In this document: positions 19,419-63,868 of the stretch, one piece after another
Layout: each line of letters starts with the position of its first letter
Position numbering within the stretch: position 1 is the stretch's first letter
Assembly (NCBI RefSeq): GCF_964204645.1
Contig: NC_134028.1
Coordinates: 26,138,153-26,202,152, forward strand
Length of the DNA: 64,000 nt
DNA from: Tubulanus polymorphus
Taxonomy: Eukaryota; Nemertea; Palaeonemertea; Tubulaniformes; Tubulanidae
Direction of reading: 5' to 3'
The notes under the pieces: model-generated
Database searches by the model: none
Seen by the model: the letters and a program-made list of their open reading frames with translations, nothing else
Told to the model about the DNA's origin: nothing
Made by a program: the position numbers and the translations under genes

Positions 19419-22400
19419 GTGATTAAGATGTTGATTATTGTGGTCGTGTTGTTCGCTGTGTGCTGGTGTCCGCTTCAGATGTACAATCTACTGTCTGAAT
19501 TCTACACCGGGATCAACGAGTAAGTTACAAGACTTCTTATTTCAAATGCGATATGCAAATTTTCAAATTCCACACAAAGAAAGTCACTAGAACTAAAAGA
19601 TATGACCTATCGAATGTGGGCGGCGTTCGCTAATCGCTGAACACGTTGATTCGATTTGCATGACTTAGAAAAAACCAGCAATGCCCGGAGCGCGCTCTGT
19701 GTCTACGAGCGGACGCACCTCACACGTCGCGACGAGCGTCCTCCGGCGAATGCGACATTTCTAACGACCTTCACCGCAACACGTCACAAAGCGATTTAAA
19801 CACTTGTCTAATGAAATTACGGCGAATAAAGAGACTGTAAATTCATGAAATGCCGACATCAGGGATTTAAAGGTCATGATTTTGAAAAATTGGCAGGCAG
19901 TATTTTATGTAGATTTTTTCGAATAACCGGATGCTAATTTCTCTTAAGTCTCGTGGTGGAACATGTCGTTCGTTGACTGGAGCAATGTTAAAGCCTATTG
20001 AAAGTGACGAGAGAATGCCTGATGATATTACTAGGGAATAAATGACAGCGATGGTGGGTTTTTTTTAAGTGTGAGTAAATGAATTTCAGATTTCGTGGAA
20101 AGCCGTTTCCGCACTAAGATCAATGGTCATGAGTATAGTAGCAGCAGTTGTCGATACTTTACACCTCCAACCTATCGATCAATGAACCTGTTCCTACCTT
20201 TCTAGTTCCCTTCTCACTCCATATCTCTCTCTCTCCCTCTCTCCCCTCTTTCTCTCCCTCCCCCTCTTTCTCTCCCCATCTCTCCCCTCTTTCACTCCCC
20301 CTCTACTTCAACTTCCGCTTGAATTTCTTGTTCGCTCATCCTAATAACCATGAATAATGCGCCTCCTAATACTACAATACTTTTCGAGGATTGGGAAAAA
20401 ATCTGACCATTCTTCGGATGGATGAGAATTCGAGGTGATCAATTCAAAGATTCGTCACAATGAGAATGAGCTGTTGGGTGTGAGTTGGTGACAAACTACC
20501 AGTGACACTGTCCGGACTCGTGTCGTAACCAATTTATAACATGTATAAATCACGACTTGGTTGAAATGACTAACGACGATTCATTAGTGAAGAAAACGTC
20601 GATTCGGAGACTGCAGGTTCTTCTCAACAACTATCGGAAAGACAGCGGATTCTTGTTAAGTGATTCCGGGTACTCTAAAACATACACTAACATTCGATCG
20701 CTATTCGTCTCCTATACGAAACCTTGAGGGCAATCAAGGCTGGATAAACAGACCCGACGTGTGAGACGGTCTGTACCGAAACACAGTCTCAAAAAGCAGA
20801 ATATAATACCGCTTTCAATTTTGTTCACCACCGCAAACTTGATATTCTCGACGTGGGCGTAAACCACAGTTTATGCGTTCATGATCATCCAACCTTTCGG
20901 GAAAAAACCTGCTGTCGTGTTGGAAATATTTCTCGCGTGGCACAAAAACGGAACTAACCTCGTGCTACCTGACGAGATGTCGGTAACACCCTTGTATTCA
21001 GTTGGTAGTATTTACTGTTTCTATAAAATGCTGCTCGCGTAGTTGGAATTATTTCCGCTATTTTGCTTAATGCTAGTCATTTAATGCGTGAACTCTTTTG
21101 ACTTCAGATTCTGTGGTCTCTTTCATAGAATAAATTACATCTTCCTTAATTCCAATGCAACCTGAAGACATGTCACTAGCAGGTAAACAAGTGCAACTGT
21201 TTTTTATCTGACGCTGAATTAGACCTTCCAAATTTTGGAGAATACACTATTAAGTACAGTTTCCAGTTTCTAGGCGATTGATTTGGGAAATGAGACGCAT
21301 CGGGACCGAATATTTTCATCGCTTAACGAATTTGTTGTATTATGGTGTTCGTATTGAACTGATTTTTTACTAGTAATTTGTACTAAATCCTGGCCGCCGG
21401 AAAATAGAAAATTAATCGTTACATCTCGAGATTTTGCAATAGACCTTCTCGTACTAACGAGGTTCCACTGTATTAGGATGTTATGCTTCCCAAAGAAATC
21501 CATAATCTTACGTTTCGAACAGATAATTACAGGACCACTTTCACTGCCTCAGAATCGGAAAATACTGTAAACACGACGTTCAATTTCTCAATGACGTTGA
21601 TATTTCTATTCCGTTAAAATGGCTAGACCCGGCCTATGGAGGTAAAAAAAGAAACCCGTCAAGTTACGTTTTATGACCCAGTTTGTCTGACATTACCCGC
21701 GGTTTAAACCAGTATCGTGCGCTGGTTCGCTCCTAGAATCAATCGCGTAAAAATCCGTTTCTTTATCTAAAATTAATCAAGAAATATTTGACATAACGAA
21801 TGTGCCATGGCGTGATTCAATCAAAATATCCAGTATTCAGAATAATATCATATCGTAGTCGATGCGCGCGACGCGATTCGATCCATTCATAAAATAACTC
21901 ATCCAAACGAACATAATGACCGTCTAAAAAACCAGCCAACATCACGGAACACGTTGCAATCTGAATCGGCAAACGAGGACGTAGCAGAAAGGATGAGGAT
22001 GAGGGGGAAAGAATGGGATTATATTACTGTCGGACGGGAAGTCGACTATTTTATATCGGGTGGTGAAACTGCACCCGGATATCCGGTGAATCGCAGATGA
22101 CTGTTCCGGTTAAGCCTTCACTTGGATTACATTAATAATTCACTCGAATCTGCCGACGGACATTGTTGTGCAGTCGGGACGAGATGAATGAAAATCATCC
22201 CATTCGCCGGAAATGATTGCGACTGTTGGCAGTATTTACAGATGGCGGGAGTCGGACCACGTTTTTCGAAATGAGCTGAAAATAATTAAAGTTACCAATA
22301 AGTTCCATTTCTATATCAAAGTTTTGTTGTTTCGCAAATTAAGGCCAGACACTGGAAAAACATTGATGATTTTGTACTGCCACAGAAGCTTGCTCGGCAC

Positions 22401-25400: not shown

Positions 25401-28400
25401 ACGACGCGCAAAATGTGTCGACACGATTTTTAAGAAGTAGATTATCTGAGAGAGGCGGACGGCGCGGGCGGATTTATGGAATTTTCCAATCGACGATTTT
25501 TCAGCCGATGGAATTTGTCAAAAGAAAAATGCAATATTCATCATGAATGAGATTTTTGGATAGTGGTATCTCATCTGGGTCGGTCACAGCTAAGTGTTTT
25601 ATGAGGCAATGTATCTTGCCTTTGTTCAATTTTTCAAGAATTTTACCGTATCCGAGAAAATTGTGACACACCATAGAAATTTTTACGGTGACATAATCTT
25701 CTATAAATTAAAAACATTAGATAGCACGCTACATAAGATATAGTTACCTTCTGAAAGCCAATGAGCGAAATTTTTTGCTCGAAAAACAGTAAACAAAGAA
25801 ATTGACTGATGAGTTCAATTGTACGAGTAAGTAACTGATTTCGAACATTCGTAGATTGACTTTGAATTGAATGGCAGTTTTTTGTAACGCCATCGGAAAC
25901 TCGAATAGAATATACGTGGTTATGATTGCGATCGCGAGTATAAAAGCCTGGCGGTCGTTCGGGGCTTTAACGCCTGTCATTAGCTGGCGTTTCTTCGACG
26001 CTTCGGTCAACGACAAAATCAAGATGAAATTCGCCTTGAAGATCAAAGCAAAAGGAATGAGTATACAGAATGCCAAATGAACGAGTTGTCTAATTTTCGG
26101 TGGATCGATGGGCACATTTTTTGTAATCCACACGTATTTAACTACCGGGCAAATAGTGCGCGCCATGGTTTGGATTCTGAAGAAATAACGCCAGATTTGA
26201 GTTACGATACTTAAAAATACAATACTTAACATGCATATATTACAGTTGGACTTAGTGCAGATGAGTCTAGACTTTAACGGATAGATCACAATGATCGCTC
26301 GCTCTAAACTAATCAAAGTTGTCAGTAGATTTCTGATCATTTTGAAAATGATTTGAAGGCTCACTGTGTAGTGGTAGATTTGAGCTCCGAAAAACAACGG
26401 CACCGTCAAATACGCCCCGTCGCCGAGTTCTAACAGACCGCTGACGTATCTACCGGAATACGCCAGCGCTGAACTGAGCAAAAACAGATTATCAGCGACC
26501 GCTAACACTCGTAACAGATGATACGTGACGATAACACGCGATTTGAACCGATATAGAATCGAAAACGTGTAAATATTCAGCAGAAAACCAACGATAGAAA
26601 CTGGCAGCGCTCCGTGTACAAAATATACTATCTTCTGATAGGTTTTCATGTTGAAACTACATTCATCGTTATTGAACGCCTCAGACAAAGTCGAATTGGT
26701 GTCATTTAACTTCATAATGTCGGCTGCATCAGGCGACATATTCGAATTAAAGCCCATGTTACGCGCATTGTGCGAAATATATTTTCAATTTATCTTTATA
26801 AAGCCAATGCACATAGTGATAATACAGTATATGGACCTTCAATACACTGACTTAACATTTCATCAAGTTTTTGTGCTATAACTAATGAATCTTCGTCAAA
26901 TTCTACCCATGTTGTCTAATTCAATTCGATTTCCATATATATTTTCCTGATGCATCGAGATTAGCTCTAACAAAAACACAATAACCGGGCGCAATACATA
27001 TTCCGTACAGTGAAATCCACCTTAGGCCAGTAGCACCAATGTTATTTTGGACTGTAAAAATTTCACCGAGTTGAGAATCAGCGAACCCGGTAGCGTTGGG
27101 ACTGCTGTAAATATTTCACAGTGAAATCCACCTTAGGCCAGTAGCACCAATGTTATTTTGGACTGTAAAAATTTCACCGAGTTGAGAATCAGCGAACCCG
27201 GTAGCGTTGGGACTGCTGTAAATATTTCACCGAGTTGAGAATCAGGGAACTCGGTAGCGTTGGGACTGCTGTAAATATTTCACCGAGTTGAGAATCAGGG
27301 AACTCGGTAGCGTGTTGGGACTGCTGTAAATATTTCACCGAGTTGAGAATCAGGGAACTCGGTAGCGTGTTGGGACTGCTGTAAATAGTTCACCGAGTTG
27401 AGAATCAATGAACTCGGTAGCGTGTTGGGACTGCTGTAAATATTTCACCGAGTTGAGAATCAATGAACTCGGTAGTGTGTTGGGACTGCTGTAAATATTT
27501 CACCGAGTTGAGAATCAGGGAACTTGGTAGCGTTGAGACTGCTGTAAATATTAAGAGCAATTCACTTTGAGTTGACCACAGTATATCGAGCAAGGAGTTG
27601 CATCCAACTTATCCAACGCATGCATTTCAGTAATAGTTGCTGATTAAAATGTCTGAAACGTCGTTGATGAGCTCGTGATAATGGTGGTGTTTAACATTAA
27701 TATTAATTCCGAGCCTCGTAATGTGATACTAATTCTTAAACTCAACTGCATGACCGCACCCCTTGCAATATAATCAAAATGACACATGCAGGACTGACTA
27801 TTGGGTGTGGTAGGATGCTGAGTTTAAATACAACTTACATTAGATTGTTACCTTCGTGTTTCTCTACGAAATGAACAACAACTTAAGTTCAATAAGTTGA
27901 ATATCAATCCCACTATATTAATGACGTTCATAGTTTATTTGAAGACGATCATGGACGAAAATAAAGAAATGTTTATTTAGGTTCTACCCTTTATTTAGGT
28001 TCTACCCTAAATTCATTAGTACTAATTATCCCATCAAATCCATGAGGTTAAATCGTCCTTTATAACGTCTCATTTCTGATGACGAATCGAATATTTCTGA
28101 CGGTATTTAAAACTATTCTAAAGACTTGGATAAAGGTGGCGACCACCTTTATCCAGAGCTAAGTCTTTAAAATAGACCGTCAGAAATATTTGATTCGTCA
28201 TCAGAAATGAGACGTTATAAAGGTTTTCAGTTCAAGTTTACTTCACGAAATGAAACCATACAGATAGATTTTTTTAGAAAAACATTATGCAGAATTTTCA
28301 ATTTTTTCACAAGCACAATTACACGTTTTAAGGAGAAAGAATGGCAGTTTTCTGTGTGGGCCAAACAAAACCTAATGGCCGCTTGGAGTCGAGCTTTGCT

Positions 28401-31400
28401 GTCTTAACATCGACGATGTCAGCGTGATTTTTCGCCAATAAGTTTATCACCGTTTTTCGTCGTCGAAATCGATAGCGTATGTTTCCAATTTCATTAGCCC
28501 TATGAGACAGAGGGCAGTCGAAACTACAGCAATGATGACAGCAATGCTGATAGGATATCTATCCGTTTGAAACAAATGCATAATTGGAAAAATCAGGAAT
28601 TCGGGCGGCTTCGACGCGCAGTGGCTATGATACATCGAGAATGAAAGAAGTTATTGGAAAGATAAGAGCGGTAAATAGGAAGATAAGACGGCTGTTCGAG
28701 GTTATAAGTGGACTATTGATGACATTTAGTTTGAAGAAGTAGAGACTCGTGGGGGGCAGGTTGAACTCGAAGGTTTGGTGTAAGCAAACTAGAAACAGTA
28801 TGAGTTTGATGATGTATATGAATAATAGAGGACCGTGGAATGTATACCGGTAAACTATGCGTTTAAACACTGAACCAATTAGGTAACACAAACATCATTT
28901 TAAACTAATGAGAGTAAACAAAAATAGCCGGATTTTATCCGTGAACTTTAAAACTAGATCGTGCTTAACAATTTCGATAAACGCGTTGACGAAAGGGAAA
29001 CATTTGATTTCGATTCCAAACATATCTGTTCAGTTTAGGGGCAATTCATTTATCACGTACGAACGTTGGGGGAGGGGCCGAGGTTGGGGTTATGCCAGAT
29101 GCGTACAAGTCTGTACACGGGAGGACGGGGTCGTTGTACGTACGTCTAATACGACCATTGCCTCGAAACTATAAACTTATACTTAAAATGAACATGCGCT
29201 CGTTTCTGCGCGTTTCTTCGCGGTTTTTGCACGGCATATTGCACGGAATGTTTTGTTTTTTTGTTTACTTGGCCCGAATCAGCCACCACAGAAGCCCACT
29301 TCACGTGTGTATGTATAAATGTATCTACGTATATTTCCAGGTTCACTTACATCAACGTGATTTGGTTTTGTTCGAACTGGTTGGCAATGAGTAATTCATC
29401 GTACAATCCATTCATCTACGGATTACTAAATGTAAGTATTTTGTGTTTGACACAATCGTGGCTTTTAAGGTTCCTCGAGCCTCGTTGACCGTCCCGTTAT
29501 GCAGTAATTCCAGTCGTTGACGATCAACGAAATAACTGCTTGGTCATTCATAAGATGAAAAAATTATTGACGCGGGGAACTATAAACGGCGCGTACCACT
29601 TAACGGTCTCTGCGATACGCTTCACTTCTTCTTTACTGTCATAGTGAAACGTTTAAACGCGACATATTTTTGCATAGATGTATAAAATAGGATAACAGAT
29701 AGATGTATTATATGTACGTATTGATTCAGAAGCATTTCTGGCCGTAGATTCCCCCGAGTACACACAGCCCGCTATAGCGTTACGTCACTGTAACACCATT
29801 AACACCGTCGATGTTTTATTGGCGATTTCACGGCGCTTTGGTCAACCTATTACGTCCAATAAAGCATTAACGGCAGGTAATAATGTTAGTCTAGCGATGA
29901 CCGAATTGACAAAAACGGGAATGCGGGTGTTTTTTTCGAGGAAATGCGACAGTAACAATCTGTCTGATGGCGTCTTGGTCAATTCATCAAAGCTCGATTT
30001 ACGTATCTCAAATTGCGTCATTTCTAATGCATTGCCCGATAAGACAGGTTTACACTAACAATCTGTCACACGAAAACAACGTTATAGAATATCTTTCACC
30101 GAGAACCTTATAGAGTCTGTGAACCACAGAGTAACAACCCCGGTGGCGACAGGGTTTCTCGGTCGAATGTTCTCCTCTGGTCTCTCCCCCATTGGGAAAA
30201 AGAAACATCGAACCCATATAATGCCCTGCCTGGCGCTTAGCGGGTTGAGGGTGTTTAAAAAAAAACATAGTAACAACAAACATGACCCATTCTCCAGGAC
30301 TGGGTGAATATAGATTATTTAGACGACGTGTGTTTTTTGCACATGACACATTTTTCCCGAAATTTGTAAATGACAATTAATTTACGTGTTTTATTTATTT
30401 TTGTTGTCTCGAACACCTACGGGCAAACTATGACGTCACGTCAACTGCGACTTTACTTGAGAATCAATGTATCTTATCGGGGTCGTCACTAGGACTTTTT
30501 TAATTATTTGAATGTGAAAAAACAAAATGTGGAACTAAAAAATGCGGAACTTTAGGGTCGTCAGTACACCCGACCGCCGACGGGCATACTTTTGTTTAGA
30601 AAAGAAATACATTTGTTTAGAACACAGAAGAAATGAACAAATTATGCATGAATACATTAATATATGCAGGATGAATGCGATCAGTAGTAAATACCACTCG
30701 CGCTTAACGGTGCACTGTGACGTCATGTGCACGTGGTCTATAGACCCAACGTGGGCACCGTATATTCAAAAAATTGTTTCATTGATTTCGGAAACAGACT
30801 CCTGATGACGTTACATTACGTACATCACGTTCTTAGATCAAAGTACACCCCAGACTGTGTAGTCTGCGGTAGCCATATGACGGTAGAATTAATTAGTTTT
30901 ACTTCATCAACTAATCAAGAAGCAGACAACTACATCAAATACACGTGCACCTGTTCCATACGACGCGCGCACCTGTTTCATCCGACTACGCTGTTATATG
31001 GGATGAATTAATCCTTAAAATCAGCGCAATATTAATCAATATATGATAATCTTTAATTTGAGATGTAATCCGTGAATTAAATCGCATTAATATATCGACT
31101 TCGATAGAGTTCAAACCGTGGTCATCAGTCCCTCGAGACTGATCAATGAAAAATGATTTGCTTTTCATTTAGAACGAAATTATGAGATATCCTTTGCATC
31201 TCAAATCGGTTGCCAATAATATATCATTCTAGGATTTTCGTTTCGCTTAATTACGAAATTATAAGATTTCTTTCTTTAATCTTATTTTCATCTTTCAATG
31301 ACTTCAGATCGGTTTCCACAGTCGTTCGACTATCAATGATTACGAATGAATATTTAATGAAATATCTCATACGAAACTCAGATGATGAAGTGATTCTTAG

Positions 31401-33001
31401 GTCATTCTGTAAGTTGTAATAGCGGGGTCGCTTCCAGTTCGAGTAGGTTACATCGAAAAATGAATTGCCCCAATTTATCATTTCATTTGACTACGTCCAG
31501 ATGGTAGTACTGTGAACGAAATAATGAGAATGTAGGAGACACCAAAATGGGAGAGAGAGAATGAATTATGGAACTAAACATGGTTTTATAGGTACTGATA
31601 TGATGTTGGACTGTCCGGCTAAGGTGAAGTACCGTATACGGACTGCTCAGTGTACTGTGAAATTGAATATGAGTTATTATTATGAAATGAGTATCATAAA
31701 ATACTGTTGCACGAAGAGAATTACATATCTATAAGGTGAACGGCCATCAAATCACTAATTAGATATCACGATGAAGAGTTCCCATGTATTATGTATGGAT
31801 TCGACACCACCACTCGTGTTCAATAATATTCCCCTAAACCTTATGTATGTAATTATCATCATTAATTTAATACCGAACTGTCGCAAATAGGTATAGATAG
31901 ATAGAATCGTGATTACAAGAGATTATTGAAATCATGTACGTATTAGTGAAATATAAAGCTATTATCATTGCGTCAGTCAGCTCGAGTGGAATTAGAAGTA
32001 AATAAATCATGATGAGTTTCGTCTAAAATATATATTTCAGTACAAAATGAACGCCGAATTTCACAATTTTTGTAATGTTATTTTGATACGTCAATATTGA
32101 TGACGTAGTGGCTCGCAGAACCATAGTATTTATCAATATATAACAACGTTATTGTAACGGTTTTAAATAAAGGCATCAAATATGGACGTGAAAATCAGAA
32201 CTCTAGTTTTACAGGTCCATGAGCCAAACCACCACAACATGAAATATATGACTGAAGGAGTGCTAGTTACTGATGTTAATGGTTTAATTAGTGAGCGAAA
32301 GTAAGACTTCTTCCGTTGACGCGCACGACGGAAATTTAAGCAAGATATTTACAACTCGGGGGCCATTTTTAAAGATTAAGTTAACGATCAAAAGACTTAT
32401 CTAACCTTTTGGTTGAAGTTTGTCGGTTAACTGTTATGGTATCTATCCAATGGTTAACTGTTGAAAAATTGATTATATGTATATCTAATCAATGCTGTCT
32501 ACATAGCAATAGGGAAACGCAAGTACCATAATGACAGTAGGAACCTATCCACTTCTACAATTTACGATCATATTTTCCGATGACATAAAACATTCCCGTT
32601 ATTTCTACCCATTCATATTTCACGCATCTGTAGATGATATTTTTCCTTTCGTTGTAGGAGAACTACAAGCGCGGTTTTCGAGCTCTGTTTACGAAATGTC
32701 TGTGTTGTCCGTGCGTCAAACCGGAAGAACCATACCAGTACAACTATAGATCGAGCGTGCGTTTAGACTAAATGTTTTACTACTGTCGTTTTAGGAAAAA
32801 TACAAGCGAGCGTTCTGTGCTATTCTTTGTGTGCAAAGACCGTGCGGTAGCTCCGAAAAAGAAGTCGGCGACTCGGATGAGAGTCGTAAATCTACCTCCA
32901 GCGAAATGGCGGCCAACCGGATCGTTATTGGCACCAATAGTTCTCGGTTTAAAAGATACCAACGCGTTCAGTATGTCGATGACGATTCAAGTTTTATGTA
33001 A
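19419..33001 (+). CDS. Neuropeptide-type GPCR, 3' exons (TM6, TM7, C-tail), 5' part not found
   Basis: This is the 3' part of a rhodopsin-class receptor. Exon 19419-19519 reads VIKMLIIVVVLFAVCWCPLQ and on to GINE: the basic end of loop 3 and TM6 with the CWxP motif. Donor GTAAGT follows, phase 2. Exon 29341-29431 reads FTYINVIWFCSNWLAMSNSS then YNPFIYGLLN: loop 3 and TM7 with NPFIY. Phase 0 donor GTAAGT follows. The receptor ends in one of two alternative terminal exons, 32658-32771 or 32795-33001, listed separately. All phases agree. The WLAMSNSxYNPFIY string is typical of leucokinin, luqin/RYamide and tachykinin-like receptors; leucokinin-type is my first guess, by resemblance only. It would sit in the plasma membrane of target neurons or muscle and signal through G proteins. 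Exons for TM1-TM5 are outside the window or unrecognised. The 9.8 kb intron contains an antisense GPCR. Confidence 0.85.
20221..20310. repeat. CT-rich microsatellite
   Basis: About 90 bases made almost wholly of C and T in CTCT/CCCTCTTT runs, interrupted by a few other bases. It yields a spurious Ser/Pro/Leu-rich ORF. Confidence 0.85.
24922..24985 (-). repeat. tRNA-derived SINE-like fragment with fused A and B boxes
   Basis: The minus strand reads TGGCCGAGTGG directly followed by GTTCGAATCC, so a tRNA-like A-box abuts a B-box with no room for the anticodon arm. It cannot be a functional tRNA. A similar arrangement occurs at about 47.99 kb. Confidence 0.45.
25744..26757 (-). CDS. Nested single-exon rhodopsin-class GPCR (FMRFamide/peptide receptor-like orphan)
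   Basis: An intact 337-residue receptor lies in antisense inside the 9.8 kb intron of the + strand GPCR gene. The N-terminus has N-glycosylation sequons (NDT, NST) and no clear signal peptide. TM1 starts near residue 43 (IVYFVHGALPVSIVGFLLNI). TM2 holds LAVADNLFLL. The TM3 end reads SLERAIIVIYPL, so ERA replaces DRY. TM6 reads YILFEFPMAL, so FxFP replaces CWxP. TM7 reads SSVNFFVYCF, so NFFVY replaces NPxxY. The last block, SSKKFRSLAFRR, is a short helix-8-like tail. These substitutions are common in invertebrate FMRFamide-receptor-like expansions. The ligand cannot be inferred. The start at 26757 is the first Met before TM1 and gives a normal extracellular length. The stop codon overlaps a good splice donor (AAG|GTAACT), so a longer spliced tail is possible. 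Confidence 0.9.
   Translation of the reverse strand: MGFNSNMSPDAADIMKLNDTNSTLSEAFNNDECSFNMKTYQKIVYFVHGALPVSIVGFLLNIYTFSILYRFKSRVIVTYHLLRVLAVADNLFLLSSALAYSGRYVSGLLELGDGAYLTVPLFFGAQIYHYTVSLQIIFKMIRNLLTTLISLERAIIVIYPLKSRLICTKSNCNICMLSIVFLSIVTQIWRYFFRIQTMARTICPVVKYVWITKNVPIDPPKIRQLVHLAFCILIPFALIFKANFILILSLTEASKKRQLMTGVKAPNDRQAFILAIAIITTYILFEFPMALQKTAIQFKVNLRMFEISYLLVQLNSSVNFFVYCFSSKKFRSLAFRR
27008..27549. repeat. Tandem array of 53-55 bp units with a 111-bp duplication at its left end
   Basis: An exact 111-bp segment starting at 27008 is repeated from 27119. From there, units containing TTTCACCGAGTTGAGAATCA and GGTAGCGT(GT)TGGGACTGCTGT repeat roughly seven times to 27549. Units alternate between 53 and 55 bp depending on one GT. 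The array lies in the GPCR intron between the nested receptor and the TM7 exon. Confidence 0.92.
28057..28223. mobile_element. 167-bp foldback (MITE-like) element
   Basis: The two halves are near-complete inverted copies around about 28140. The outer tips are CCTTTATAACGTCTCATTTC on the left and its complement on the right. The centre is GATAAAGGTGGCGACCACCTTTATC. There are only a few mismatches and small gaps, so the insertion or duplication is probably recent. Confidence 0.85.
28447..28891 (-). pseudogene. Two overlapping hydrophobic ORFs, possible decayed membrane-protein fragment
   Basis: Minus-strand ORFs 28625-28891 (88 aa) and 28447-28635 (62 aa) overlap by a few bases in different frames. 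Each contains strongly hydrophobic stretches (for example LLFIYIIKLILFLVCL; and IAVIIAVVSTALCLIGLM followed by a charged tail FDDEKR). One frameshift would join them into a protein with about four membrane segments. I do not recognise a family. AT-rich DNA can produce such stretches by chance, so this is a weak call. Confidence 0.2.
29432..32657. other. GPCR intron between TM7 exon and terminal exons
   Basis: Begins with GTAAGT and ends with TTTCCTTTCGTTGTAG. No other exon is recognised. A GGGTCGTCACTAGG motif near 30.48 kb also occurs near 23.77 kb and marks a dispersed repeat. A tRNA-like GGGTTCGATG block lies near 30.2 kb on the minus strand. Confidence 0.6.
32658..32771 (+). CDS. GPCR alternative terminal exon A (cysteine-rich short tail)
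   Basis: After acceptor TTGTAG the frame set by the TM7 exon reads ENYKRGFRALFTKCLCCPC and ends SSVRLD before TAA (32769-32771): 37 residues. ENYKRGF is the usual start of helix 8 after NPxxY. The CLCCPC cluster is a plausible palmitoylation site. The tail is short and lacks a Ser/Thr cluster. If this exon is used, exon B lies in its 3' UTR. Confidence 0.85.
   Translation, partial: ENYKRGFRALFTKCLCCPCVKPEEPYQYNYRSSVRLD
32795..33001 (+). CDS. GPCR alternative terminal exon B (serine-rich long tail)
   Basis: A second acceptor (TGTCGTTTTAG, exon from 32795) lies 24 bases after the stop of exon A. In the same phase it reads EKYKRAFCAILCVQRPCG, then a Ser/acidic stretch (SSEKEVGDSDESRKSTSS), and ends DDDSSFM with TAA at 32999-33001: 68 residues. 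The first seven residues match exon A at five positions (E-YKR-F), the mark of an exon duplication. The Ser/Thr-rich tail offers kinase/arrestin sites. The last residues S-F-M fit a class I PDZ ligand. Choosing between the two acceptors would switch the tail. Confidence 0.85.
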   Translation, partial: EKYKRAFCAILCVQRPCGSSEKEVGDSDESRKSTSSEMAANRIVIGTNSSRFKRYQRVQYVDDDSSFM

Positions 33002-34434
33002 ATGTGGTAGGCTTATCAAAGACCCGTTTCGGCAAGATGGCTGCCTCCAGAATAACCAGTCTCGTTACGTATCTACGTTCAAGTCGATCGATGACGTCGT
33101 TGAGGGCGATTCGTGGAGGCAGCCATATTGGGAGGTTCTATAAATGTTGTCTACCAACCAATGTTTGTATATATCAGCACCAAATATTCACGACGATTTA
33201 TTACGGAGAGGATTGAGAATGTTCGTGTTTTGTGTTTTACCTGAAAATTCGTTCTCAAGTTCATCTTGAGTCGGAGATTTGAATGTTCGATCACGAGTGG
33301 AATTGAGCGCGCGCGCATTCTTACAGCCCCAAACAGCGATTGAGACGCTGGTGTTTTTCGGTGTTCCAACGCTAAGGTTTGATCCCGTGTTCCGCTATTA
33401 AACCTTTGTTAACCCAACCGATTTTGTGACGTAAACGTAGTGAGGCTTTCGAGAAAAGTGTGTATAACCTTCGTTTGTTTTTGTATAAATCATTGAAAAC
33501 GCTTTATGTAATTACAACGGAAATTGTTGAGAATTTGAAGAATATAGATTTGCCCGTATATTGTATGTAAACAAGAATTGTTCAAATATTACTATGTACA
33601 AATACTATATTGTTTGTTAACTATAAAGATATTTTCAAAAATGTCCTTTTCAGACAAACTTCGTGTGTTAGTGACGAAATACGATTCGAAAGATTAACCC
33701 TCTCCCCGTGTGTCTAGTTCAACAGTTTTGAGTTAGAGATCACAATGAGTAAGAATTAGTTCATTTTCAAATTATTTGACTTCGGTTAGATTCTAACTGA
33801 CAACTGTTGAACTTTATACAAAAGACGCATGAGTGAAACTACTATTCATGATGAGAAAATACACCCTTTATAACTGTTTAAATTCTGGTTTGTAAAAAAT
33901 GAATGTCCCAGCGAGAGCAATTCCCGCATCTACGATTGTGAAAATACAAGTTGTTATATGGATAAGCCGGAGCTTGTTCCGCAGTATTCTGAGGCGGATC
34001 TGCGTACATAACTCACTGCGTCGTTTTCAATCATGAAACGATATAACGAGTCAAATTTTCATTTGTAACACTGTCAAACTGGGTCCTGATGACGTACAAA
34101 GTGACTCTCCTACAAGTCTGAAAGTTATATACCCCAAATATCCGAGGTTTGGAGTTGTTTCATCTGCTTTTGTCAGTGTGTGTATTAACCGTACTTTCTC
34201 GATATCAAAGTGAATATTTTTTCAGCCACATCACACATTACTGTGTAAAGATCAGTCACACGCTGTTGTCAATAATTTTGTTAATAAACCATTGATAAAA
34301 TCTGCTGAAATCGCTGAATATTGTTTTCATTTTTTTTTGCAAAGCGGTGAATGCTGAATGGACCTCAGTTGTGATGACTCCAGCAGTGCGTGCAGAGTTG
34401 GGTACTCGAGAGGATGAATGTAATGTTTTGACGA

Positions 34435-34668
34435 CCAGTCACCACACCTGTCTGGTCACCAGTCACCACACCTGTCTGGTCACCAGTCACCACACCTGTC
34501 TGGTCACCAGTCACCACACCTGTCTGGTCACCAGTCACCACACCTGTCTGGTCACCAGTCACCACACCTGTCTGGTCACCAGTCACCACACCTGTCTGGT
34601 CACCAGTCACCACACCTGTCTGGTCACCAGTCACCACACCTGTCTGGTCACCAGTCACCACACCTGCA
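34435..34668. repeat. 24-bp minisatellite, about 10 copies
   Basis: The unit CACACCTGTCTGGTCACCAGTCAC repeats almost perfectly. The period is a multiple of three and the unit has no stop in one frame on each strand. It therefore creates spurious ORFs: TSHHTCLV repeats on + and GVVTGDQT repeats on -. The GGTCACCAGTCACC part is itself partly palindromic. Confidence 0.95.
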
Positions 34669-36867
34669 CTGACCAGATAAACTACCAAACTTCGTCAATC
34701 GCTGCAGTACGCTGTTCTGCCCTTTCCGGGAACATTTTTTTTCAAATGCTTCGCCCACACACAAAACCGTCCCATCAACCTTTAAAATAAAAGAGGGCAT
34801 ATATTTATGAGTCGTGGCAGATAAATCTTAACAAAAATCCCACCCAGGTGTCCCCAAACTTAGTTTAATGCCTGGAAATTGCACCAAAGAGGAGTGAATT
34901 TTCTAGATGATTTTTCCCGATTGACGTGAATGCTTGTCCGCCCTTTTGTTAAAAGTTGTGCTACCCTCCTTGTTTCTGGTTCGAGCAAGGGAGTTCGTGC
35001 TTAGGGGGTTCGAGGCGACGAAACCGAGTAAATATAGCTACCCTATCAACTAAATATTTCTGTTTTTTCAAGATGTAATTTTGACTAAATTATTTTGTTA
35101 AGATTTGTAATTTTGATTATCAGTCATACAAGTGTAGTACACACTTTGATTAAGAATAAACTATCATATATACTTAATTATCTTATGATTAAGATATTTA
35201 ATTATTATGCGTGGAATTCTTTTAATCGAAACAAAAATAGGTTGAGTCGAACTTTAAGCGCATCAGTAAATACATACATTATATTGATACAATCACTATT
35301 GGATATAAATGATTTTCCTATATTATAATCCCGTAGCTCATGAATCAATGAATTCGTGAGAGAGATATTTCAGAACATCAAATCACTTTTTAAGCTCGTT
35401 ACAAAATCATTAATTTCATCATCACGTTGAAACAAAACACGTCGCTGCAAATAACTAAAATCAGAATCCGATAAGATATCGTAAATCGTTTGCGTGTGTG
35501 TTAAAACAGTGGCTGATTGAAGTGCGGAGACACGAGAATGAAACATTATACCTTTCAACTGCAACGCAATTAAATATCATATTTCAGTGAAAATTACACC
35601 CTTTAAAGTTGAAAATGACTCTAAACAATATCAAACTAGCAGCGTAACTACACTTAACACGAGTATACGCATACATGTCGTGTGCGTTTATAGTTCACTC
35701 AAGCGAAGTTGAGAACGAATGCTCTTTGAATATCGATAAAACGGTTAGATTGTTTCTTGTGAAAGTTACTTTATTTTTATTAGCCCCTCGTTTGTACTAT
35801 ATAACAATATCCTCGGGGATACAGGCGTGCCCGAAATACATTGATGAATTTACAGACAGGTCGATAATGACTCCCTGAAATCTTTGAACATTAAGTTCAC
35901 TTCGTAATTATTTCCTTCTATCTATTTGATTTGTGAGCGCACAATCTTACAGTGCGTGTTTTGGTCACGGCATCAAGGCTGTAAACAACGACATCAGTAA
36001 ATTCAAATTAGACCCATAACATTATGCGATGCATTCGATAGATAAATAGTTTCACCAAATCTAACTAAATCACGAAGCAGACTTTCTAATTTTCGACTAC
36101 AGAAGTCAATAAATTTCGGGGCCCGATTCCACAGTTTCCACGGATAAGTTCGACGGTCAAAAATCAGTTTATTTCCAATCTCAACAAAATCGCAACGAAT
36201 CTACCAATGAATTGGGTCAATCCCTATATTAAGAATTTTATGAATTTTGTCAATTTCATAATTTTTGAGCCAGATCGAGAACAGTGGAACTGAAGTAACG
36301 CGTGGAGGCGTCAGTCTGAACTGTACACGCAGTACGTAGAAGGTACGGGAAGGTCGGTGAATAGAGGTTCACTTCTAAGAGCTAACTGTTCAGGCGATGA
36401 AATAGAAAAAACATATCGCCACGGGTAAGATGAAAGACAATGTAAGATCTAAAGAGAATGGACGACGTGATCAACGCGCAGTGAAAAGCTCACATCAAAC
36501 ACGGTGTAATTTAACCAGTCGTTTACGGAGACACGTTACTCACTGTACGATCGGGCATTACTGTTATTTCTATGACGTGTATATTTGTCGAACCACGCTC
36601 TTCCTGAGCCGCAAATCCTGATCGCAAAACTCGACACCAAATCATTCGCCCGCTTTTATGAAAACGTAAAAGGACACACACATAGCTAAAAATCTGTTCT
36701 CTTTAAACAAGATATTATTTCATAGGATTGTCTTTTGTTTTCGCCCGGGTGAAATTGTACGCCCTATGTAAGTTGGATGAAACAAAGCTGCCTTCATCCG
36801 GTAATAAGATGACAGATCCGTTCGTTGGATCATGATACAAAGTCCACTAATGGAAAAGACGCGGTGA

Positions 36868-39080: not shown

Positions 39081-44897
<5,817 letters not shown>

Positions 44898-45808: not shown

Positions 45809-47700
45809 AGCATCCATATTGGAATACCTACAAGATGGTGAGCTATATTTCCGGCTTTAAATATCGCCTTTCATCCACTATTTAGACTTTTCTTTTCATG
45901 TGGAAAATCTCTTAATAGAAACAATAATTCATAATAGTCACTTTAAGACGTTCACATGTTTCTTAATCCGGTTTTAACTCGAGTAAAATTACCCGTAAAG
46001 TTACGTGGTCCCCATCCTTCTTCGACATCACTTCCTATAATTTGATTCGTAAGATTTTAATTCGACGATGTTTTGTTTCAGGCTGAATCGACAGCGACTC
46101 TTCGCACCAGAAAGTACATGTCCAACCGCCTGCTGTCCAGGAAACAGATGGTAAATTATTTACATATTTCAAATCGTAAAATGAAGTCGAATTGATGCTG
46201 AAAGATTCAATTCAATGTCAATGATGTAAAAATATCCGATATAGGGCTATAATATAAGCAGCTCAATACAACGCAGATGACAAACTATGTAAAGCTTATC
46301 AATGGAATGCAAGATCGTATTTTTAAAATCAGCAAAGTATTGCTTGACATAGTCATAGTTAGCCACTGACATTGACAAGTCGGGGAATTTTCATTGAAAT
46401 GTCTGGGAATTTTGCAAGAAAAAAAGCTATAAGTCGGGGGAAAAAGTGGCCATCCCGATTATATCATTGATTTATTTTCGGTAAATTCAGTAGATAAATG
46501 TTACATTTGATGTATATTTATAGGTGGTTGATGTGTTACATCCTGGACGATCGACCGTACCGAAAACTGAGATCCGTGAGAAACTCGCTCGCATGTATAA
46601 AACCACCCCCGACGTCGTCTTCGCGTTCGGCTTCAAGACGAAATTCGGCGGCGGACGAACAACTGGATTCGCTCTCATTTATGAAAGTTTAGATTTAGCG
46701 AAGAAGTTCGAACCGAAATACCGATTGGCGAGAGTAAGTTTGATTCATATTTCAGTGTGTGTGTACACCGCAGTACGGTGTATAAATCGGTGTTTGGCTT
46801 CGCTAGTACATTGCATCGATGTGTATTGATGTTATTAGTAATAAATAGGTTGTTATCAGTATTTTAGTGAGAAATTTGAGCAACTAACAATAGCAACAAA
46901 GACAAACAAACTCCTGGGCTGGGTTTCATAGACTTGGAATGAAAATAGTCCCTGGGAATATTTTGAAATTTGTCAGTTATAACCATGGTTTCTCATTGTA
47001 ACTATGGTGGTTGTCACTCAGATTGAGGATTTACCCCCTAGGGATAACTTTGGTACTGAGTCTATGAAACCGGGCCCTGGAGTGGAATTTTTAAACAATT
47101 TCTAATTATCTCCAGCACTGTGCAGTGAAAGGGTTAAGAGAAGTTTATTTTAGTTCATTTTCAATTGAAAATGTTGTGGGTGATGTTCTATTCGCATCTG
47201 AAGTACGATCGAAAGATATCCTTTATAACGCCGCAGTTAGGACCGATGAAAAACAAAGCGTTATAACGAATTAAGCAGCATTATGTGAATGAAGAAGGAA
47301 TGGTATTTCCATTGAATTTAATTGAGTTAAAATTAGCAAATTCGTTCTCTGAGAAATTATGTTGGCTTAAAAGTGAGCAGTGGATGGCATCGTTATAACG
47401 GAAATAGACTGTTGTGACGAAGTAGGAAATATCTAAGGGGTTGTAGGGTCCAGGCTTCAGGCCTGGTGTAACCTGCATGAATACAGTGAATAAATAACTC
47501 TGAATTGATTAATTATGTGATTAATATTACAGCACGGAATAGAGGTTGAGAAACCGAAGGGTTCGAGCAAACAGAGAAAGGAGTTGAAGAACCGAAGGAA
47601 GAAGGTCCGAGGTACGGCCAAGTCTAAGATCGGTTCCAGTGGCAAGAAATAATCCAACGGTTCTGAATGTTACATTTGTAAAATACGTATAAAAAATAAA
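45802..47700 (+). CDS. RPS24: 40S ribosomal protein S24
   Basis: This is a component of the small cytosolic ribosomal subunit. Exons: first exon to 45837 carrying only the ATG (45835-45837); 46082-46150; 46524-46733; 47533-47652 (TAA). They join to 133 aa, the normal family length. The start reads [20 protein letters not shown], the core [20 protein letters not shown] and [20 protein letters not shown], and the end is a basic tail with [10 protein letters not shown]. The ATG-only first exon is a known feature of animal RPS24. The 5' end carries an oligopyrimidine tract CCCTTTT at 45802-45808, typical of TOP mRNAs whose translation is growth-controlled. A poly(A) signal AATAAA is at 47695-47700. 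Intron 3 holds a foldback element. YARS2 starts about 0.4 kb downstream. Confidence 0.98.
46913..47081. mobile_element. Foldback MITE-like element in RPS24 intron 3
   Basis: The left end CTGGGTTTCATAGACTTGG is mirrored by the right end AGTCTATGAAACCGGGCCC. The inverted repeats of roughly 50 bp show several mismatches and enclose a short core. It lies wholly within the intron 46734-47532. Confidence 0.65.
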
Positions 47701-53820: not shown

Positions 53821-56443
53821 TCATAATCTCTTCAACGTTTTTTTCTTATCTTTTTTCTTTTTTTCGATGAGTTTTTTATCGCCGGCGTGTTTCTTCGCCA
53901 TCGGACCTTCGCAACATTTTTCCGTCAGCGACGACGAGGTCGAGGTTGACGCGGAGACATTATCAGGTGAATTCGATTGCCTGAAATATTTCAAATACAT
54001 CTCTATCTGACATTTCATAGAACAGGTACCAGTAATTTTGAAGAGAACAGTAGACTACGCCTGTAGCTTTAGCGCTGGGCCTGACAGGATGTTACCGGTA
54101 TAGACTAATACCACTAATAAATTTGTTCACATCGATAAACAGGGTCCCTTAGTACGGATGAGTCATTCCTTGATTTAAGGAGTTTTCAAGGAGAATTTCA
54201 AATTTTGAGGAATTGTCTACATCACTTTCATATCCTAATTACTGTAGACTTTTCCTAAATCGGCACTGTTTATCTCGGTAAACCATGAATTCAGAGGTTT
54301 TGTAAATAAATTACACCACTAAACCCGGTTTCTAATTCAGTAACCGCCATATTGGGCAATGAAAAGATCCTGGTCCAAACTGTACTGATTTAGCGTAATC
54401 TACAACCACAAACATTTCTAGTTGCATATTTCTCAAAATTGAAAGAGTTTCATAGGAATTTTGGGCATTATGCTCAGATTACAGGAGTTTCAAGCACATT
54501 TAAACACAGTTTCTATTTAGGAGTTGTTAAGGAATCAAGGAGTTGTAGGAACCCTGTAAACAGTAAGGACAGGAAATCATTCTATTATTCCTACCGAAGT
54601 GGTTTAGCGTGTATTTCCGTGTACATTTTCGCTCGTTGCGAATAATCGTCATATTTTTCTTGCAACAGTTTTCCGGCCTCTTCGTTCAACGCCGATTCAG
54701 GATTTGGGACGATCAACAAACATTTCACAGTCTGTAGAAATATCGAATTAAATAAAACCGACATCATAAATCTGAGTTATCAAAGTTAGGGAGAAAAACC
54801 TATAATATTTCCTCTGATCTAAACCTACCAATAATATATGCTTTATTCCCAGATCTGCCTTCCAATCTTTTTTCAAAGTGTTCACGCAAATTTCACCGTT
54901 TTTCGACACGTTTGGATGGAATATTTTTGTTACGAAAAAACCTTTCGGAGGCTCGGCGGGGAAGTTCTTCCCCAAGACTAGTTTCATACGAAAATGTCCG
55001 CCAGCATACGGGGTTCCAGCTGCAATCAAAATAAACATTCTTTCATTCTATTCATCTTGAGACAATCAATTACAGAACCACGAACTACAAACATCTGCGG
55101 GCAGGTCCAAGCTGAATAGGGGGTGCGGGGTCCAGTAGTATCCACAGCATAGGCCCTATGTAGAGCATCATAGATCAGTGGAAACAACCACTAGGCCTAC
55201 CACAAGACTGAGTGAATGTTGAAGGGGATGCAGGGTCCAGGCTGATGGGCGATTCAGTGTCTGTAAGGTAGGGTGCAGAATTCGACTTGAGGTGATGCAG
55301 GGTCCAGGGCTGAGGCGGTGGTAGAGTAAAGGCTGAGGGGGGATGAAGAGTCCACGCTGAGGGGGGACCAGAGTCCAGGCTGAGGGGGGATGAAGAGTCC
55401 AGGTTGAGGGGGGATGAAGAGTAAAGGCTGAGGGGGGATGAAGAGTCCAGGCTGAGGGGGGATGAAGAGTCCAGGCTGAGGGGGGATGAAGAGTCCAGGC
55501 TGAGGCGGTGGTAGAGTCCAGGCTGAGGGGGTTCATTGACTCACCAGGTCCATCGATTGTAGCTTGAATATCAGTAATATCTTCATCATTAAACGATATT
55601 TTGATACCCTCTGGAGGATCGTTCGTCAACTCTTGTAACTCTTTCACAATTCGGCGAATTATTTGAGGTGAAAAATTTTCAACATTACTCTGAAAAATAC
55701 GAAACACATAATTGCCATGAGTCGTGGCCTTGACCTCACGGGGTCATCGTGTAACGCTGGCGGTACAAAACAAAATCAAAGCTCTTCCCCAGTCACGTAT
55801 AGAATTACATTTCATACGCTAGAATAAAAGATAAAAGGGATAGAGCTTTTTTTTGGTTTTGCATTCCAGACCAAGCTTTCATCATGTACAGCTCCTTAAA
55901 ATACAGTTTAAAATGGACTAAAAATCAAAGTTATAGGTCAACTGCCAGTCAGTCCTCTCTGGTCCTAAGACTTCAATCAGGTATGCACTACAAAAAAAAT
56001 GAATGAGCTAGGCCACCTGATGTGCTCTCAAGCAAAGTTGAAATAGACATTTGAAATTATTCTGGGGGGTCACTGAACTCCTATAACCAAAAGACGAGAG
56101 AGAGAGAGCGAGAGGGGTCATTTTCAAAATAATTGACAAATCGGAGTCCCATTACATTACTATTAGATTATATGAACGCACAGCGGTGATGTTGAATTGC
56201 TGGGGTTTGAAGGGTAGCCACACAACTGATCAAAGGCCTATTTGATGATAAGCCCCTATAGCTAATAGGTCGGGTCTGTGTGTGTGTGTGCCTGTGGTAC
56301 AAAAAATCTCAAGTATGATGAGTGTATGACAGAGAATTTAAAATCGAAAGAAAGGGATTCCCCGCAGTTTTAGTCAAGTATTCCGTTAATCTGGCCGAGT
56401 TGATCGAGTCATTCCGATAGCTATCGATACTCACCGTGGACAT
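53821..56443 (-). CDS. UBE2S: Ubiquitin-conjugating enzyme E2 S
   Basis: UBE2S extends Lys11-linked ubiquitin chains on APC/C substrates in mitosis. Five exons in phase give 213 aa (vertebrate about 222): 56443-56435 (only MST), 55689-55545, 55019-54829, 54731-54595, 53980-53821. The E2 fold starts [19 protein letters not shown]. The HPN motif FHPNV is at 85-89 and the catalytic Cys at 96 in [22 protein letters not shown] follows. After the UBC domain there is a Ser/Thr linker, then GPMAKKHAG and a Lys-rich tail ending LKRL. This is the C-terminal peptide by which UBE2S docks on APC/C; human ends LRRL. The gene is divergent from ARL6IP1 and convergent with YARS2. Intron 2 contains a 24-bp minisatellite. 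The start is short but phase-consistent. Confidence 0.97.
55103..55533. repeat. 24-bp minisatellite in UBE2S intron 2
   Basis: The core (about 55304-55532) has roughly nine copies of GGGGATGAAGAGTCCAGGCT + GAGG. Degenerate copies continue left to about 55103. The array starts within about a dozen bases of the exon 2 donor on the minus strand. In the sense strand it reads as SAWTLHPP repeats in the frame of exon 2. Confidence 0.92.
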
Positions 56444-62655: not shown

Positions 62656-62919
62656 GCAGACAGTCCGAGGTGAGAGGCAGAACCCTGTCCCAGTGAACCA
62701 TGCAGACAGTGAGAGGCAGAACCCTGTCCCAGTGAACCGTGCAGACAGTGAGAGGCAGAACCCTGTCCCAGTGAACTGTGCAGACAGTGAGAGGTAGAAC
62801 CCTGTCCCAGTGAACTGTGCAGACAGTGAGAGGCAGAACCCTGTCCCAGTGAACTGTGCAGACAGTAAGAGGCAGAACCCTGTCCCAGTGAACCGTGCAG
62901 ACAGTGAGAGGTAGAACCT
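62656..62919. repeat. 39-bp minisatellite, about seven copies
   Basis: The unit GAGGCAGAACCCTGTCCCAG + TGAACCGTGCAGACAGTGA repeats with few changes. Its period is a multiple of three, so the + strand shows an RQNPVPVNxADSE repeat ORF, broken after three units by a TAG. It is not a gene. Confidence 0.95.

Positions 62920-63776: not shown

Positions 63777-63868
<92 letters not shown>
63777..63868. repeat. (AT)46 microsatellite
   Basis: An uninterrupted AT dinucleotide run of about 92 bases. It is self-complementary and prone to length change and assembly error. Confidence 0.97.

Follow-up and report, generated by a model that had tools for sequence, protein, structure and literature searches.

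Introduction

C-terminal isoforms are common among neuropeptide GPCRs. According to PMC9624432, they occur for 21 of 49 such receptors in Drosophila, where RYa-R has three, the tails differ by splicing or stop suppression, and eight receptors including RYa-R possess tails that differ in their content of candidate arrestin sites. In Aplysia, apTKRPR-A and apTKRPR-B derive from one class A neuropeptide receptor gene and are identical until the intracellular C terminus; one tail is poor in Ser/Thr (5A mutant) and the other is richer (14A mutant), and desensitization through the richer tail depends on phosphorylation (PMC11365428). The abalone transcripts Hdh-TKRL and Hdh-TKRS are identical from the start to TM7 and diverge from the intracellular amphipathic helix (PMC9521575). 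NPR-22a and NPR-22b, splice variants of the luqin/RYamide receptor of C. elegans, are both functional with similar potency (PMC5576490), and the two splice variants of the insect receptor ETHR, A and B, use alternative 3' exons that have been placed in one exon tree (PMC8291126).

The locus described here, in the nemertean Tubulanus polymorphus, differs from each of these systems. The excerpted text of PMC9624432 does not mention a terminal exon in which a helix-8 unit has been duplicated. The Aplysia isoforms belong to another receptor, the present genome having its own tachykinin-receptor-like gene with one tail exon, and the excerpts of PMC11365428 describe no homology between the Aplysia tail exons. 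The abalone receptor is likewise a tachykinin receptor, for which the authors leave splicing versus gene duplication undecided (PMC9521575), while the available portion of PMC5576490 does not state the position at which the NPR-22 variants differ. In ETHR, the differing part is larger, the variants being 43.4% identical, and ligand sensitivity differs by assay (PMC8291126). C-terminal GPCR isoforms are known. Among the titles and abstract openings listed for duplicated receptor tail exons there is no match to the compact copying of an acceptor and helix 8 in one terminal exon that is proposed here, which does not prove that none exists. We consider it probable, from the sequence features analyzed below, that the receptor gene has a single terminal exon, served by two competing 3' splice sites that originated by tandem duplication and subsequent divergence.

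Structure and Classification of the Receptor Gene

The genome analyzed comprises 267.8 Mb in 77 contigs, and the window, that is, the whole stretch of 64,000 nucleotides under study, corresponds to C4:26138153-26202152. Positions given without a contig refer to the window. The receptor gene spans the left half of the window and extends beyond it, the TM1-5 exon being located 12 kb upstream. A 7tm_1 profile search of the genome located the TM1-5 match at C4:26125700-26126332, and exon 1 (C4:26125526-26126311) is joined by splice sites into a whole receptor. The TM6 exon (19419-19519, plus strand), for which phmmer matches to NPFF2R and NK3R were obtained, is bounded by an ACAG acceptor and a phase 2 GTAAGT donor and encodes VIKMLIIVVVLFAVCWCPLQMYNLLSEFYTGINE, including the first base of the next exon. 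The TM7 exon (29341-29431, plus strand) is common to both isoforms and ends with NSSYNPFIYGLLN, where ...NPFIYGLLN is followed directly by a phase 0 GTAAGT donor. The introns measure 31.3, 9.8 and then 3.2 or 3.4 kb, and the protein assembled from the first ATG on contains 363 residues with tail A and 394 with tail B.

With tail B, the receptor matches 7tm_1 (PF00001) at 213.2 bits, against a cut-off of 30.5, over profile positions 1-260 of 260, as expected of class A. It contains IDRY and NPFIY, and DRY and NPxxY are motifs of class A GPCRs. The nearest solved proteins for the whole receptor are the substance-P receptor (200.4 bits), the neuromedin-K receptor, NK3R (196.8 bits), and NPFF2R (192.8 bits), so the lead is narrow; when the comparison is restricted to the segment from TM6 through tail A, the best match is NPFF receptor 2. 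The preliminary description of a neuropeptide-type GPCR is borne out by these matches. By sequence, the receptor is tentatively placed in the tachykinin/luqin-RYamide/NPFF group of class A, and it may be a luqin/RYamide receptor. Luqin-type and tachykinin-type receptors are paralogous according to PMC5940834. A clearer tachykinin-receptor candidate is located at C4:4076018, where the segment from TM6 to the tail scores 96.2 bits with NK3R versus 54.8 with NPY2R, and a further, equally tachykinin-receptor-like paralog (214.8 bits) lies at C4:26798126-26811422.

Several other features of the window were observed. Inside the TM6-TM7 intron of the receptor, an intronless 7TM-like frame of 346 residues occupies 25747-26784 on the minus strand; it scores 25.8 bits with 7tm_1, under the cut-off of 30.5, and is probably a nested, divergent GPCR gene. 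Directly past the tail B stop, in the presumed 3' UTR, a 17-nt inverted repeat with 94% complementarity and arms 64 nt apart (33033-33130) may form a hairpin; it was rejected as a repeated mobile element, because its 141 bp gave a single genome match in a search that skips very common words. An AATAAA at 34283-34288 (plus strand) is a possible poly(A) signal for both isoforms, with ATTAAA at 33397 and AATAAA at 34786 as alternatives. Minisatellite arrays (unit length 24 to 111 bp, score at least 150) were detected at six places, 27007-27552, 34434-34666, 39935-40280, 41202-41615, 55294-55531 and 62670-62918, one of them approximately 1.4 kb beyond tail B, and an AT repeat lies at 63777-63868. 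Pfam matches were obtained for poly(ADP-ribose) glycohydrolase (39483-39875, minus strand), ribosomal protein S24e (46524-46826, plus strand) and a ubiquitin-conjugating enzyme (54751-55047, minus strand), while four of the seven window frames tried gave no Pfam match over the cut-off.

Two Candidate Acceptors in the Terminal Exon

As had been proposed from first inspection, two phase 0 acceptors 137 bp apart fit the TM7 donor at 29431, and the coordinates read as claimed. The 3' splice site A (32638-32657, plus strand, TATTTTTCCTTTCGTTGTAG) has a pyrimidine fraction of 0.82 at -20 to -4, and site B (32775-32794, plus strand, TTTTACTACTGTCGTTTTAG) a fraction of 0.76; these values are reached by 1.1% and 3.4%, respectively, of the YAG sites on both strands of the window. 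Tail A (32658-32771, plus strand), ENYKRGFRALFTKCLCCPCVKPEEPYQYNYRSSVRLD followed by the stop, consists of 37 residues plus TAA, starts with ENYKRGF and combines helix 8 with a Cys cluster. Tail B (32795-33001, plus strand), EKYKRAFCAILCVQRPCGSSEKEVGDSDESRKSTSSEMAANRIVIGTNSSRFKRYQRVQYVDDDSSFM followed by the stop, consists of 68 residues plus TAA and starts with EKYKRAF. Both starts and both lengths are thus as first described, and the locus presents a GPCR core followed by two in-phase coding choices for the C terminus, the layout of alternative C-terminal isoforms.

Exon B does follow closely on stop A, but the spacing measures 23 bases (32772-32794) and not the 24 originally counted. Since only 23 nt separate the two units, and unless a donor lies inside exon A before its stop, the layout is best read as a single terminal exon offering a choice of two 3' splice sites. 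Mutually exclusive last exons would be separate, each with its own end, and the original view of separate last exons is not supported. It had also been suggested that the splice signals of B lie partly in exon A. This holds for a candidate branch site, CTAAA (32768-32772, plus strand), which resembles the branch-site consensus and crosses the stop codon of tail A, but not for the pyrimidine tract, which lies wholly in the gap (32775-32791). It is possible, though on balance doubtful, that the stop and last codons of tail A double as the branch region of B, in which case the two isoforms would be bound to each other in sequence and could not evolve independently.

Coding Potential of the Tails and Alternative Readings

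The synonymous codon score of tail A is reached by 0.09% of 1,095 open intronic segments of equal length and that of tail B by 10% of 219, while past residue 11 the corresponding values are 0.35% of 2,011 for A and 13% of 381 for B; all four percentages are rough, because the intronic segments overlap. Codon use in tail A is coding-like, and its assignment as coding sequence is well supported. For tail B, the case for coding appears moderate, with a strong acceptor, a strong helix-8 start and codon use that is weakly coding-like.

The weak codon signal of tail B past helix 8 is what would be expected if the unit had been duplicated but one tail alone were used, the other being a relic or following a 3' splice site that is never chosen. 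We regard this as unlikely. Good pyrimidine tracts precede both acceptors, helix 8 is kept and the end is clean in both frames, and tail A has coding-like codon use. Furthermore, open frames of 68 codons are found in just 2.5% of intronic segments, compared with 12.6% at 37 codons. The age of the duplication is also relevant here. Within the first nine residues, three of the six identical residues (E, R and F) are encoded by different codons. The duplication therefore does not appear to be recent, and the pair is as expected of an old duplicate maintained at the protein level. A relic so old that its synonymous sites have changed would be expected to have lost its frame or its acceptor.

Retention of the TM7 intron would yield a truncated third isoform, in which 18 residues (VSILCLTQSWLLRFLEPR, then a stop) follow the donor. 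The frame does stay open over these 18 codons, and a short NK1R is known in mammals according to PMC11365428; however, the GTAAGT donor is of the consensus type, and such an isoform, compatible as it is with the two helix-8 acceptors, leaves them unexplained. As the main alternative to two acceptors, it is very improbable.

Relatedness of the Two Units

Both strands of the window together contain 6,679 AG sites, and the 11-residue peptide that follows each of them was compared by BLOSUM62 with the starts of the two tails. Against the start of A, that of B scores 31 and the next best site 16; against the start of B, that of A scores 31 and the next best 23. A helix-8 profile was derived, with A and B left out, from 25 further receptors encoded in this genome, which were drawn from 36 loci. 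Among the same AG sites, the top scores with this profile are those of A (16.9) and B (15.6), followed by 11.9 at a site inside exon A and then 7.1. No third tail exon was found among the phase 0 AG sites of the window, the best score beyond A, B and the exon A site being that 7.1, on the minus strand. At the DNA level, 32 of 48 positions from -12 to +36 are identical between A and B, whereas no other 48-mer in the window exceeds 27 of 48. Because acceptors and helix-8 codons are under constraint at both sites, this identity would be inflated to some degree. The agreement includes 10 of the 12 intronic bases before the junction.

Moreover, the pattern YAG-GAR-NNN-TAY-AAR-MGN-NNN-TTY (YAGGARNNNTAYAARMGNNNNTTY) has two matches on both strands of the 268 Mb genome, and these are sites A and B. 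It should be noted that this pattern was composed after both sites were known and that the reversed control has four matches, so a few per genome are expected and the unlikely part is the 137-bp spacing of the two. Past their starts, the tails had been called unrelated. This is only partly upheld, since blastp aligns 24 columns with 10 identities and a gap of two residues (E = 0.001, for a single comparison). The alignment pairs one Pro-Cys of tail A with one of tail B, and the kinship of the tails may accordingly reach beyond helix 8.

The AG-site scan, the profile ranks, the DNA identity, the genome pattern and the blastp alignment all back the original proposal of a shared helix-8 start and a duplication followed by divergence; the units are related beyond chance, which is what distinguishes a tandem exon duplication. 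Acceptors and helix 8 each restrict sequence, so that some likeness would be expected if an AG downstream of exon A merely happened to precede a helix-8-like start, but this origin of B is rejected in view of the gap from 31 to 16 among all AG sites, the two genome-wide pattern matches lying together here, and the continuation of the likeness into the intron. Duplication rather than chance is the best account of the two starts.

Comparison with Paralogous Receptors

In the tachykinin-receptor-like gene (C4, 4076018 to about 4076510), a TM6-TM7 exon with a phase 2 donor is followed 172 bp on by a tail exon (FRQGFKSVFKWIPC...). The intron lies two codons later than in the receptor studied here and is in phase 2. 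Among 1,964 AG sites across 38 kb on the plus strand, scanned in the gene's own phase, this tail exon scores 12.0 and all others at most 5.8, and no second tail was found over the 38 kb downstream. Since this gene yields one tail, the scan does not create second tails by itself. That the intron was inherited within the wider receptor family is not supported by the relatives compared: the paralogs L015, the nearest by TM7 match, and L019 have no intron at this position. As the intron is absent from these two and displaced in the tachykinin-like gene, it seems, like the double tail, to be peculiar to the present receptor among the four genes examined. Regarding orthologs, a scan of viral_contigs gave no match, as expected for an animal gene.

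Predicted Consequences of Acceptor Choice

In the proposed mechanism, a short stretch containing a 3' splice site and helix-8 codons would have been copied in tandem and would later have diverged. Splicing from the TM7 donor into the first of the two acceptors would give tail A, which is short, with a Cys cluster and few Ser/Thr; as the terminal exon would be single, exon B should then form part of the 3' UTR in the mRNA of this isoform. Joining to the downstream acceptor would skip 137 nt and give tail B, which is long and has a Ser/acidic stretch. If no further intron follows, both stops lie in the last exon, where stop codons should not trigger nonsense-mediated decay, and neither of the two should do so.

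We infer that both acceptors are used and that the tails differ in role. Because the core is identical in both isoforms, the choice of ligand should stay the same, and acceptor choice would most likely tune desensitization, internalization and surface level. The preliminary description had envisaged a switch between membrane anchoring (tail A) and arrestin/PDZ coupling (tail B), which is not supported in that form. Cysteines occupy positions 14, 16, 17 and 19 of tail A and positions 8, 12 and 17 of tail B; since tail B too has juxtamembrane cysteines, the contrast is not clean. Class I PDZ ligands have S/T-x-hydrophobic at the extreme C terminus, and tail B, which ends in SSFM, is a putative and loose fit with Met as the last residue. 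Arrestin-code motifs were scored as S/T-x(-x)-S/T-x-x-S/T/E/D. Tail A has no match to the long form of this code and tail B has two overlapping matches, at least as many being present in 38% of 5,000 shuffles of tail B. The short form is as given in PMC9624432. Ser/Thr residues number 3 in tail A versus 13 in tail B. By analogy with the Aplysia tachykinin receptor isoforms, these differences in tail length and Ser/Thr content, together with the Ser/acidic stretch, should alter phosphorylation-dependent desensitization.

The arrangement suggests how tail diversity of a receptor may be gained at small cost. A copied splice site with its helix-8 codons would provide a second tail that, by the way it arises, is joined correctly to the receptor, and the remainder of which would then be free to diverge. 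If both tails are used, they would constitute a natural pair that isolates the effect of the tail on desensitization and would join the Aplysia isoforms as a test case among invertebrate peptide receptors.
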